A DNA stretch of 45,476 bases, from the NCBI GenBank assembly GCA_017962275.1, contig JAGCVQ010000085.1, positions 1 through 45,476 on the forward strand. The letters run 5' to 3'. Shown one piece after another: positions 42,034 through 45,175 of this stretch. Source of the DNA: Bacteroidales bacterium (lineage in GTDB: Bacteria > Bacteroidota > Bacteroidia > Bacteroidales > WCHB1-69). The position numbers were made by a program, and so were the translations under genes. The first letter of the stretch is position 1. Every line of letters starts with the position of its first letter. The notes beneath the pieces are model-generated. The model was given only the letters and a program-made list of their open reading frames with translations, was not told the DNA's origin and did no database searches.

Positions 42034-42900
42034 TTAATCGTTTGCCCGCCACACGATGAAGCTCACCTTCTCGTACGTCTTGCTATCATGTTGCACGCCC
42101 CACGTCGTTGTTTCGGCTGGGGCGTTTTCCGTCAGGGTACGGCAGAACCCGTAGGCATCGTCGCCCACGAGGTAGATGGCGTTTTGTACGCCCAAGTCCG
42201 CCAGCGCCTGCGCGAAGTCGTGCAGGGATTCCCTTCCCATGCTGCTCACGGTCACGATGGCGCCGTTATACTCGCAGAGGGCGTGGCGCAAGGCCTTGTT
42301 TTTGGGCTTGTTTTGCACCATTTGGCCATCCAATACCAACGGATATTGCCGGAAGAAGTACCCTTCCTTTTCGATGGTCTCCTCCAGCAGGGGGGTGCTT
42401 TCCGCCATGCCGAGTTGGATTTTGCCGTCGAGGATGGCGCAGAAGCCCTTCTTGGATCGTCCGCGGGACAGCAGTTCGCCTTTGAGGACGAAAGCACCGA
42501 GGATATCATTGTTGTCGGCGCGGACATCGGCCGCCTGGAAGGCCAGTATGAGCGAAGGGTCGTTGGTGCTCGAATAGCCGACGCAGAGTTCAGGCACCGC
42601 GTTCACGGGGGTGTAGAGACGCAGCGGCACGTCGTTCACGGAGGTGTCGCGCACGAGTACGGTTGCGGGCTCCGTGCGCATGATGGTCGGGGCCACGGCT
42701 TCGGATTCGATGTTCGCCGCAGTCATATCCATGGAGGCGGCCAAGTCCCGGTGGTTTTTACGGGTTTGCAGCAGGCCGATTGCGGTTATGGCGATCACCC
42801 CGGCAACTGCCGCCCAGAACCACCATTTGCGGTAGAAAGGCTTTTCCTGCCGGCTGATGATGCGGATTTCATCGTCTTTTATGTCATCAAAGTGCTTCAT
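42034..42900 (-). CDS. Single-pass membrane protein with phosphodiester-glycosidase-like (NAGPA/DUF2233) domain
   Basis: A 288-residue protein: a 25-residue cytosolic N terminus (MKHFDDIKDDEIRIISRQEKPF), one membrane helix (about 26-46, WWFWAAVAGVIAITAIGLL) and an extracytoplasmic domain. The later part resembles the NAGPA/DUF2233 fold: RSKKGFCAILDGKIQLGMAES, a long insert with NKPKNKALRHALC, IVTVSSMGRESLHDFAQALADLGVQNAIYLVGDDAYGF, where family members have an LDGGGS-like end; here the equivalent is LVGDDAYGF, so catalysis is doubtful. The gene begins within the last codons of the LytTR gene (ATGA overlap, 42897-42900), so the two proteins are translationally coupled and probably form a regulatory pair. 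Confidence 0.75.
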   Translation of the reverse strand: MKHFDDIKDDEIRIISRQEKPFYRKWWFWAAVAGVIAITAIGLLQTRKNHRDLAASMDMTAANIESEAVAPTIMRTEPATVLVRDTSVNDVPLRLYTPVNAVPELCVGYSSTNDPSLILAFQAADVRADNNDILGAFVLKGELLSRGRSKKGFCAILDGKIQLGMAESTPLLEETIEKEGYFFRQYPLVLDGQMVQNKPKNKALRHALCEYNGAIVTVSSMGRESLHDFAQALADLGVQNAIYLVGDDAYGFCRTLTENAPAETTTWGVQHDSKTYEKVSFIVWRAND

Positions 42901-43265
42901 AGCTTATATTCCTTTTCAAAATAGTCTTTCAGCAACCGCAAAGCCTCCTTGGATGCTTCGAGGGTGAACTTGAAAGTGTGATTGTCGGACAGAATGATCT
43001 GTTTTTTTGCGGGATTGATGTAATGCAAAAAGCGAAGGTTCACAATCAGGCTCTTTCCGATGCGCACGAGCTCGTCTTCTTTGGAGTGTATCTGTTTGTG
43101 AATCAACTCTTCGATGATTCCTAACTGCAAGGTTACGATGCGATTTTCCCCGTCGCGGGTGTGAATGTCCGAGTAGTTGCCATCGCCGGCGACATAGACC
43201 AAGCTCTCCGCTGCAATGCGGACCAGTTCGTTGGCGTTGGAGAGGGTCAGGTAATCGGACATCAT
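42897..43265 (-). CDS. LytTR-type DNA-binding regulator without receiver domain
   Basis: A 122-residue protein made of little more than a LytTR domain: RIAAESLVYVAGDGNYSDIHTRDGENRIVTLQLGIIEELI, FVRIGKSLIVN-type motif (LVRIGKSLIVNLRFLHYINPAKKQIILSDNHTFKFTLEASKEALRLLKDYF). No receiver or membrane part is encoded. Proteins of this family bind direct repeats of about nine to twelve bases spaced two helical turns. A 12-bp direct repeat with 21-bp spacing lies upstream (43391-43423). It overlaps the membrane protein gene by 4 bases. Two adjacent ATG codons at 43265 and 43262 are possible starts. Confidence 0.88.
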   Translation of the reverse strand: MMSDYLTLSNANELVRIAAESLVYVAGDGNYSDIHTRDGENRIVTLQLGIIEELIHKQIHSKEDELVRIGKSLIVNLRFLHYINPAKKQIILSDNHTFKFTLEASKEALRLLKDYFEKEYKL

Positions 43266-43280
43266 TTACAATTTTGGTGC

Positions 43281-43350
43281 AAAAATACGATTTTTCCTTG
43301 TGTGGGAACGCATGATATTGCCTTCCCGCAAAAATCCGACGGCAAAAATA
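43281..43350 (-). promoter_or_regulatory. Two -7 boxes upstream of the LytTR gene
   Basis: On the minus strand TATTTTTG occurs at 43350-43343 and again at 43288-43281. The first lies about 40 bases downstream of the 12-bp direct repeat and lacks a TTG at the -33 position, as expected of an activator-dependent promoter. The second is 15 bases before the ATG. Confidence 0.5.
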
Positions 43351-43390: not shown

Positions 43391-43423
43391 TGTATGAAAT
43401 GGGCGGGTTGGTGTATGAAATGG
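43391..43423 (-). promoter_or_regulatory. Putative LytTR operator (12-bp direct repeat, 21-bp spacing)
   Basis: TGTATGAAATGG occurs at 43391-43402 and again at 43412-43423 (on the minus strand CCATTTCATACA twice), identical copies 21 bases apart start to start with a 9-base gap. This is the geometry known for LytTR-domain binding sites (two helical turns). It ends 40 bases before the -7 box at 43350. Confidence 0.6.
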
Positions 43424-43450: not shown

Positions 43451-43507
43451 TCACCAACGCCTCTATCGGCACCGTGCTGTCCATCAGGCCGATGCGGGTG
43501 TCGGAGG
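43451..43507. pseudogene. Gene-tail-like fragment, copy A
   Basis: A 57-bp stretch is shared with 45119-45175 (about 87% identity by eye, no gaps). On the minus strand one frame reads SDTRIGLMDSTVPIEALVIP and then a stop codon. It is interpreted as the 3' end of a lost gene; the family was not recognised. It lies beside the putative LytTR operator. Confidence 0.4.
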
Positions 43508-43522
43508 TTACTCACGAATCCT

Positions 43523-43972
43523 CTATTTCCACACAGGTTCCTTTTCCCAATCACGAGGGAAGCCCATGGCGGCGGAATCCACCTCGGGAAAGGCGGAAAG
43601 AAGCATTTTGAGTTTGGTTGTCATATCGTTGCTTGGTGAGATGACATTGACAAAATATTTGATAATGCAAAGATTGAAATAGATACGAAGAGGGTCGGTC
43701 GCTAAAGTAATCCAAGAAAAATCTATATGATGAGGGATAGATTGATACAGCATCATAACTTGATCAAACGATGTGTTCTCCTTGTAGTGGTGTTCGGTTT
43801 TCGGTTTTCTCAACAGGGGGTACATATACGCTGAAAGCCGATAATAGCCGATGTTCTGAATGTGCCAAACGGCATCCTTAGCATTTCTGATAATCAAACC
43901 TCTTGACCTCAAGAGATTTACAAGTTCTATTGGAGTGTTATATGTCTTGTCGAATGCTTTTCTTGTTCCCAT
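43523..43972 (-). pseudogene. Internally deleted Abi-family (AbiD/F-type) abortive infection gene
   Basis: The N-terminal part (RKAFDKTYNTPIELVNLLRSRGLIIRN, HIQNIGYYRLSAYMYPLLRKP, SFDQVMMLYQ) and the C-terminal part (FNLCIIKYFVNVISPSNDMTTKLKMLLSAFPEV...AMGFPRDWEKEPVW) both fit Abi_2 family proteins, but family members are about 300 residues long and this frame has only 149. The middle, which normally follows the LY.FDR segment, is missing, joining near residue 80 without breaking the frame. It is therefore probably a decayed phage-defence gene. ATG 43972 is the likeliest start; an upstream TTG adds seven residues. A good promoter (44055-44083) is still present. Confidence 0.7.
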
Positions 43973-44054
43973 ATACAATATGTTTGTCTTCAATTAAAAA
44001 AAAACGACCCGCACATTTGAGCATCATAGAGAGGCTTGGCGGGTTCTAGCGGTG

Positions 44055-44107: not shown

Positions 44108-44311
44108 ATTCAGCCCGTCAGGGCTTCCATCTCTGTAGCCCGAGGACGTTCCCGGCCGCGCCCCACAACCCCGTATGGGGTGCACATCGTGCGTGACAAT
44201 GATTTTGCACCCTGTTGAATATGAATCTCCTACGGAGATTTGGCACCGCCCGTGGGCATCCGTTTCTACAGATAGGCATCCCCTAACGGGGATAGGGCAC
44301 CCCGTTCACCA
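44108..44311. repeat. REP-like repeat cassette, copy 1
   Basis: About 204 bp with four or more small palindromes: AGCCCGTCAGGGCT, CCCC..CCGTATGGGG, ATCTCCTACGGAGAT and ATCCCCTAACGGGGAT. It recurs in the same order and orientation at 44920-45123. No gene is seen in 43973-44341 apart from the promoter. Confidence 0.85.
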
Positions 44312-44341
44312 GTGACTCACAGAAAAATTTAAGAAAGAAAA

Positions 44342-44656
44342 CTAATAATAGAGAAAACTATGGACTGCGTCATGGACGACAATCGCTTTTTCTCCATGAG
44401 CGTCAACCGTAATCTCATACGCAAAATGGAAATCCTCGCAAATAAATTCCTGCCAGCCCTTTTTAATCCATTCTTTTTTAAGTCTTGCCTTGGGGAATAT
44501 GGTCGCATAGTTGGCAAGCGATTCCAATCCGTCATAGAGACGATTCTTCTTGCTTTCCACGGTATCAAAACTTAAAGTATGCCAATGTTTCAATATGGCA
44601 GCATCATAGAACGATTCTATGGCTTGATGTACACGCTCTTCAATAAGAATTCTCAT
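44342..44656 (-). CDS. RelE/ParE-superfamily toxin (type II toxin-antitoxin)
   Basis: A 104-residue protein with the RelE/ParE-like pattern common in Bacteroidota: a helical N-terminal half (HQAIESFYDAAILKHWHTLSFDTVESKKNRLYDGLESLANYATIFPKARLKKEWI) and the beta-strand end GWQEFICEDFHFAYEITVDAHGEKAIVVHDAVHSFLYY. Such toxins usually act on mRNA in the ribosome or on gyrase; which applies here cannot be seen. Its start codon overlaps the antitoxin stop (44653-44656), as is typical for such pairs. Confidence 0.8.
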   Translation of the reverse strand: MRILIEERVHQAIESFYDAAILKHWHTLSFDTVESKKNRLYDGLESLANYATIFPKARLKKEWIKKGWQEFICEDFHFAYEITVDAHGEKAIVVHDAVHSFLYY

Positions 44657-44844
44657 GCTTCGGGATGGTAGAACTTGTAGATCTTTTCAGTTAACCGACG
44701 ACGAGATTCTTCGAGCGGAATACATTGTGAAATTTCTTCGTCGGAGATTACCCGATACGTAGTTTTTGCAGCAACTCCATATTCTGCGGTTGGTTCATTA
44801 ACCATCGGATTTTCAGGTTCTTCTGTAGGATAATCTTTTGCCAT
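44653..44844 (-). CDS. Antitoxin partner of the RelE/ParE-type toxin
   Basis: A 63-residue acidic protein encoded directly before the toxin gene and overlapping it by four bases. The C-terminal half (ISDEEISQCIPLEESRRRLTEKIYKFYHPEA) has the charged amphipathic helix expected to wrap the toxin. No DNA-binding fold is obvious in the short N-terminal part. The call rests mainly on operon position and size. On the minus strand TATCTTTG (44874-44867) is a fitting -7 box about 22 bases upstream. Confidence 0.65.
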   Translation of the reverse strand: MAKDYPTEEPENPMVNEPTAEYGVAAKTTYRVISDEEISQCIPLEESRRRLTEKIYKFYHPEA

Positions 44845-44919: not shown

Positions 44920-45123
44920 CCCAAGCCCGTTAGGGCTTCCATATCTGTAGCACGAGGACGTTCCCGACCGCACCCCACAACCCCGTTAGGGGTTGCACAT
45001 CGAACCCGACAATGTTTTGCAATCCATTGAATATGAATCTCCTACGAAGATTTTGAACCGCACGTGGGCATCCGTTTGCTACAGATAGGCATCCCCTAAC
45101 GGGGATAAGTCACCTCATTCACC
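44920..45123. repeat. REP-like repeat cassette, copy 2
   Basis: Second copy of 44108-44311, same orientation, with only one single-base length change (offset 812 at the left end, 813 at the right). Palindromes AGCCCGTTAGGGCT, CCCCGTTAGGGG and ATCCCCTAACGGGGAT are kept. The toxin-antitoxin pair lies between the two copies. The remaining sequence to 45371 holds the fragment at 45119 and no other gene. Confidence 0.85.
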
Positions 45124-45175
45124 AGCGCCTCTATTAGTACCGTGCTGTCCATCAGCCCGATGCGGGTGTCGGAGG
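45119..45175. pseudogene. Gene-tail-like fragment, copy B
   Basis: Matches 43451-43507. The minus-strand frame reads SDTRIGLMDSTVLIEALVN and continues into the repeat cassette instead of stopping, so the copy is cut at its 3' end by the cassette. Confidence 0.4.

Follow-up and report, generated by a model that had tools for sequence, protein, structure and literature searches.

LytTR operators are described as paired repeats of 9–11 nt with spacers of 11–13 nt, and the binding target of the E. coli LytTR activator YpdB in the yhjX promoter is a directly repeated GGCATTTCAT (PMC4847170). A related design is that of the LytTR Regulatory Systems (LRS), such as HdrRM and BrsRM of Streptococcus mutans: a soluble LytTR regulator is encoded ahead of its membrane inhibitor, and positive feedback runs through direct repeats that lie immediately before the promoter (PMC6193735). 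By the account of that 2018 paper, the S. mutans examples were the only characterised ones (PMC6193735).

The window analysed here is the whole of a 45,476-nt stretch of a Bacteroidales genome (assembly GCA_017962275.1, contig JAGCVQ010000085.1), in which a direct repeat precedes a gene for a small LytTR protein (lytTR) and a gene for a membrane protein (the partner). The initial annotation took the repeat for a LytTR operator. We consider it likely that it serves as operator for the stand-alone LytTR protein encoded beside it and belongs to a positively autoregulated activator system. The site, its spacing, its promoter geometry, its recurrence, its linkage to lytTR and their co-occurrence are observed directly in the genomes.

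The probable operator, the boxes and the gene pair

The features of the locus are as follows; offsets are counted from the first A of ATTTCATACA in half-site 1.

43412..43423, minus strand: operator half-site 1, distal to lytTR, CCATTTCATACA (from the sequence, genus recurrence and the conservation table)
43391..43402, minus strand: operator half-site 2, proximal, CCATTTCATACA, 21 bp from half-site 1 (same three sources)
43343..43350, minus strand: -7 box TATTTTTG of the operator-linked promoter, starting at offset 71
43280..43287, minus strand: proximal -7 box TATTTTTG, offset 134, 22 nt ahead of the lytTR start
43266..43342, minus strand: stretch that holds just a leader and the proximal box here and other genes (P339–P747 or WG-repeat) in most linked relatives
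42897..43265, minus strand: lytTR, 122-aa stand-alone LytTR protein (PF04397 match, no receiver domain found)
42034..42900, minus strand: membrane partner, 288 aa, its start overlapping the lytTR stop (ATGA)

On the plus strand TGTATGAAATGG occurs twice, at 43391–43402 and 43412–43423, and these coordinates bear out the perfect repeat with starts 21 bp apart that had been reported; the likeness extends beyond the 12-mer, 17 of 19 bases being identical between the copies. Read gene-ward, on the minus strand, the operator is CCATTTCATACA-N9-CCATTTCATACA, and it is upstream of lytTR because that gene lies on the minus strand (42897–43265). Its 10-nt core ATTTCATACA, its 11-nt spacer and its position upstream of a promoter agree with the form of LytTR operators (repeats of 9–11 nt, spacers of 11–13 nt, upstream of the promoter), and core and spacing are conserved over 30 non-redundant sites with a box at 71. 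As a control for chance, the window was resampled 60 times (first-order Markov) and perfect non-simple 12-mers repeated 13–40 bp apart were counted: the resampled windows held a mean of 0.07 such repeats and none at exactly spacing 21. The real window contains 19 further comparable repeats (one flagged as low complexity), four of them at spacing 21, and several of the 19 are of short period, for example GTTCAA or TAACCC; because of these, the window repeat by itself is weaker evidence than the resampling implies. Recurrence across genomes is strong evidence for an operator and ranks above the resampling control.

The lytTR product matches PF04397 over residues 13–115 with 31.4 bits (cut-off 22.6) and so belongs to the LytTR family; its orthologues suggest the second Met as the start, which would give 121 aa. 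LytTR was the only Pfam domain found in it and no hydrophobic span was predicted: like the regulators of the LRS, it is apparently soluble and has no receiver domain. As in the LRS, too, a membrane protein gene follows directly, and the overlap of the two genes suggests co-transcription in one operon. The partner has one predicted span (residues 26–44). Its N-terminal tail carries DIKDDEIRII, with D6, I7, D9 and E11–I15 invariant in 10 sequences; this motif can also be made out in other families, in the partners of G119, G242, G364 and G147, and was not seen in that of G329. No span was predicted in the partner frame of G149:C4 (143 aa, at a contig end). The C-terminal domain reaches 23.8 bits against NAGPA, under the cut-off of 25, and this sub-cut-off match is the only one in Pfam for the window partner; relatives score 22.7 (L118), 23.8 (G242), 25.0 (G364) and 30.6 (G119). 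These weak Pfam matches, the sole basis for the assignment, hint at an NAGPA-like fold. NCBIfam profiles list nothing for either window protein, and against the sequences of solved structures the partner gave nothing significant (best E 0.37) and the lytTR product a weak match (E 0.037).

Several other features lie nearby. There are two copies of a roughly 200-bp intergenic element, at 44112–44318 and 44924–45131 (about 812 bp apart; pieces 87–90% identical), flanking two small overlapping ORFs on the minus strand, 44342–44656 (104 aa) and 44653–44844 (63 aa). Neither ORF has a Pfam or NCBIfam match; their layout recalls, as an impression only, a small toxin–antitoxin pair. A 57-bp repeat (91%) occurs at 43451–43507 and 45119–45175, with one copy just upstream of the operator. 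An Abi_2-like ORF of 156 aa (43523–43993, minus strand) also adjoins the operator; it is divergent or truncated, since its best stretch covers only positions 3–39 of the 184-position model.

Recurrence of the site and its place before lytTR

Genomes were searched with the pattern ATTTCATACA-N11-ATTTCATACA, the same pattern read backwards serving as control. At up to three mismatches the own genome (G000; 2.77 Mb, 105 contigs) gave three matches, the window site (0 mismatches), one on C77 (1) and one on C80 (3); about 0.0003 matches with at most one mismatch are expected at equal base frequencies. The copy on C77 has its box at 71 and stands ahead of a gene for a WG-repeat protein (PF14903); a search for the same repeat before other genes of this genome had been proposed in the initial annotation. 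Across 40 genomes of the genus, the own included, at up to two mismatches there are 48 sites in 25 genomes; the backwards control gives 0, and 0.34 are expected at equal base frequencies. A lytTR relative (E <= 1e-12) is present in 26 of the 40. Site and lytTR occur together in 24 genomes, the site alone in one (G025, 68% complete), lytTR alone in two and neither in 13 (p = 1e-7, kinship ignored). One of the two genomes that have lytTR only, by the pattern, is G034, where the P339 gene is preceded by two copies of CATTTTGTACA at a 21-bp period and by a box at 70; this appears to be a co-varied operator. The LytTR of the other, G032, is just 34% identical and has a different repeat before it. 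That repeat (L023), GAAATAATATGTGAA/GAAATAATGTGTGAA, likewise has a 21-bp period, and this divergent LytTR perhaps has its own operator code.

In 22 of the 26 lytTR-bearing genomes of the genus the site heads a gene run with lytTR and partner; this count includes G034, whose operator is the variant, and G006 and G018, where the link was inferred over contig ends. The run begins with lytTR itself in two (the window and G001), with P339–P747 in 15 (13 on a single contig, G034 by the variant, G018 over two contigs) and with the WG-repeat gene in five (G014, G029, G020, G016 and G006; the WG protein of G016 has only 27% identity). Genes thus stand between site and lytTR in 20 of the 26, one or two in most linked relatives, and the window site fronts lytTR directly because no gene lies between them in this genome. 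In four genomes (G002, G011, G012 and G032) lytTR is present and no site was found upstream of it. Absence of the repeat upstream of orthologous loci had been named as grounds for abandoning the operator reading: the immediate lytTR promoters of the close orthologues examined do lack it, so that direct autoregulation is not the commonest layout of the genus, but at the head of the lytTR runs it is present in most. P339 has only sub-cut-off matches, to PBECR4 in Pfam and to a lipoprotein model in NCBIfam, and P747 has no match in either. The window's lytTR and partner genes (42034–43265) look like a mosaic of two locus types of the genus, some stretches being nearest to WG-type loci and others to P339-type loci.

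Five genomes (G007, G003, G063, G031 and G062) share the window's neighbourhood, an ATP-grasp gene on the rpoA contig, with RpoA 94–96% identical, and carry P339–P747 between site and lytTR. In this genome P747 was not found by a search that matched 17 of the 40 genus genomes, nor was P339, by a search without an internal positive control. For these reasons, the window locus appears to have lost target genes, and its operator–promoter now fronts lytTR; which target formerly stood there is uncertain, since the close relatives G020 (RpoA 96%) and G006 (95%) have the WG layout instead. Could the site then be a leftover operator–promoter of lost targets that no longer matters, with the proximal -7 box driving lytTR? 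The five neighbourhood-sharing genomes and the absence of both genes here would suit this, as would the orthologues, which carry a box at the proximal position, at a similar distance before lytTR as in the window. Such a leftover is nevertheless rather unlikely: the -7 box and the two half-sites are undamaged and keep the customary distance of 71 nt, transcription starting at the distal box would run straight into lytTR, and direct placement recurs in other genomes. The window site is probably an autoregulatory LytTR operator, acting as an activator site.

Such direct placement is found beyond the genus. Among 393 sampled genomes of the order, at up to one mismatch, the site was found in 17, a partner match in 17 and both in 10 (p = 2e-11, kinship ignored); the backwards control matched in three genomes. 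Outside the own genus (389 genomes) the figures are 14, 14 and 7 (p = 4e-8, kinship again ignored), and seven genomes there carry the site without the partner gene. A box at 70–72 accompanies five of the 20 sites found outside the genus (21 loci, L128–L148, were scanned, of which one, L146, is of the own genus); the sites in G036, G142, G177, G224, G244, G336 and G350 have none and may be chance or unrelated. Enlarged stretches were obtained for eight loci from seven of the 14 outside genomes, and these are not a random sample, as they were picked for a LytTR, P339-like or box-bearing neighbour already seen. In six outside genomes (G364, G242, G149, G147, G248 and G346) lytTR is immediately preceded by the site or a variant of it, and the box is at 70–71; in G147, G248 and G346 this site has 2–3 mismatches and was found by a targeted look before lytTR. 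The order search yielded 18 partner loci, with a LytTR gene in the available stretch of 13. Of these 13, six (the window, G242, G364, G346, G147 and G248) have lytTR immediately behind the site or a variant, five (G029, G061, G119, G329 and G149:C1) have the site or a variant ahead of a gene that comes earlier in the run, and in two (G245 and G188) no repeat was found before lytTR; G149:C4, a further direct case, brings the outside genomes to six. The site is followed by CreD, then lytTR and partner, in G149:C1, and by a 268-aa ORF, CreD (PF06123), lytTR and partner in G329. These CreD runs (L156 2615–3931 and L155 2771–4099; G149 and G329, of another family) are a lead toward an envelope-related role. 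In G119, G364 and G346, relatives of P339 and P747 (partly at 22–24% identity) stand behind a site without the TAnnTTTG box.

The autoregulation by LytTR put forward in the initial annotation is supported in that the site is directly before lytTR in the window, in G001 and, in its own or a variant form, in six genomes of other families, where the repeats are just upstream of the operon promoter as in the LRS. Taken alone it is too narrow: the operator also precedes the WG-repeat gene, the pair of a lipoprotein-like and a long protein, and a run with CreD, and its role would accordingly go beyond autoregulation. A small regulon seems to share this operator and spacing and to recur in several families.

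Alternatively, the site might be bound by a different LytTR protein, such as the response regulator of a two-component system, that controls the operon from outside. This genome has eight LytTR domains, the other seven in frames of 257–442 aa, and these proteins could in principle bind it. Yet LytTR domains are present in all 40 genus genomes, 2–13 in each, while the site is found only alongside this lytTR, bar G025; the site therefore tracks this lytTR, not LytTR proteins generally, and the linkage holds in several families. From this co-occurrence we judge another binder quite unlikely.

Promoter geometry and a proposed circuit

With the adjacent LytTR protein as the favoured binder, the promoter bears on what it does there. 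A TAnnTTTG box lies 70–72 nt downstream of 41 of the 48 genus sites, the window's included. For the other 47 it is at 71 in 34, at 70 in five and at 72 in one (40/47), and seven have no box at 70–72; the background density is 0.00046 per position. G001 has its box at 60, not 71, about one helical turn shorter. In the conservation table of the 30 non-redundant sites with a box at 71, both copies of CATTTCATACA stand out, as do the box and the CCGCC behind it; in the window the distal box (43350–43343) is followed by CCGTCG, mostly CCGCCG in relatives. The first ATG of lytTR is at offset 156. A -7 box without a -33 TTG had been noted downstream of the repeat, correctly, and TTG is absent at -33 of both window boxes. 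Among site promoters (box at 70 or 71) one of 39 has this TTG, against 16 of 70 other boxes, taken within 60 nt upstream of ORFs of at least 120 aa in the same genus material (p = 0.005). Its scarcity fits an activator-dependent promoter; it is not special to the operator promoter, because the box nearest lytTR has the TTG in only 1 of 26 loci.

For binding, activation, inhibition, topology and signal, we infer the following circuit. Two LytTR monomers would bind both half-sites, on one helix face and two turns apart. The promoter downstream of them has a good -7 box and lacks a -33 element, and the bound LytTR would recruit RNA polymerase to it; at the window site this would switch on lytTR and the downstream membrane protein, a positive feedback, and at the second copy (G000:C77) it would also switch on the WG-repeat protein. 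The partner, with its short conserved tail, one span and NAGPA-like domain, would most likely hold the regulator inactive and release it on sensing a signal on the outer side of the inner membrane. Its tail would lie inside and its larger part outside that membrane, placing it to relay an outside signal to the regulator.

The LytTR protein could instead repress at the site, with which the present sequence evidence is compatible. However, the site is upstream of the box at a fixed spacing and not over it, which is the usual activator geometry, and the LRS repeats reported as tested in S. mutans activate (PMC6193735), making repression very unlikely. Finally, a chance repeat, or a member of an intergenic repeat family without a regulatory role, is barely conceivable and was rejected on the control pattern (48 sites versus 0 backwards): the window does hold other perfect 21-bp-spaced repeats, of different sequences, but this one recurs with no control match in the genus, a fixed box spacing and gene linkage. 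The operator, the fixed promoter geometry and the conserved gene pair allow regulon prediction in uncultured Bacteroidales from sequence alone, and the lytTR–partner pair would be a simple sensor of two genes, directly testable, whose domain outside the cytoplasm is probable.

Comparison with known systems

Among the literature matches listed, none concerned this Bacteroidales lytTR–partner pair or its operator by title or abstract. The window half-site shares CATTTCAT with the GGCATTTCAT repeat of YpdB (PMC4847170). Unlike the window regulator, YpdB is the response regulator of a histidine kinase system (PMC4847170) rather than a LytTR protein standing alone beside a co-encoded membrane partner. 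The LRS-like operons listed for Bacteroides thetaiotaomicron and B. ovatus are closer in lineage: they too are of Bacteroidales and have direct repeats and a TAnnTTTG promoter, the period there being 22 bp (PMC6193735). They differ in that the LytTR regulator itself has several spans and a membrane protein (NfeD-like and DUF2154) is encoded upstream, whereas the window regulator has no predicted span and comes first; their repeat, given as TCCGGTATTCA/ACCGGAAATCA, is also unlike that of the window (PMC6193735).

The system may represent a separate class in several Bacteroidales families, a proposal that we regard as tentative though quite possible: a single-span NAGPA-like sensor, whose tail D-I-x-D-D/N-E-I-R-I/V would hold a LytTR activator, and one operator code in common (CATTTCATACA at a 21-bp period, with the -7 box at 70–71) that would govern envelope operons (WG-repeat, P339–P747, CreD) and the system itself.

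There are a number of differences from the streptococcal LRS: (i), the partner is single-span and NAGPA-like; (ii), the half-site is CATTTCATACA, against the ACCACTTAT type given for the LRS (PMC6193735); (iii), the promoter is of the Bacteroidetes type; (iv), target genes stand between operator and lytTR in most genus relatives; and (v), the site is about 10 bp further from the promoter box, about 73 nt from the start of repeat 1 (counting from CC) versus about 63 to the -10 in many rows of Table 3 and 67 in B. thetaiotaomicron, distances that are our own arithmetic from the tables of PMC6193735 and depend on the register chosen. The likeness lies in the architecture, in which the gene of a soluble LytTR regulator that stands alone comes first, that of a membrane protein follows, and the operator is upstream of the promoter; some of the LRS operons described carry further genes (PMC6193735), as do the window-type loci of relatives. 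The best explanation of the locus is a system apparently built like the streptococcal LRS but with a single-span, NAGPA-like partner.
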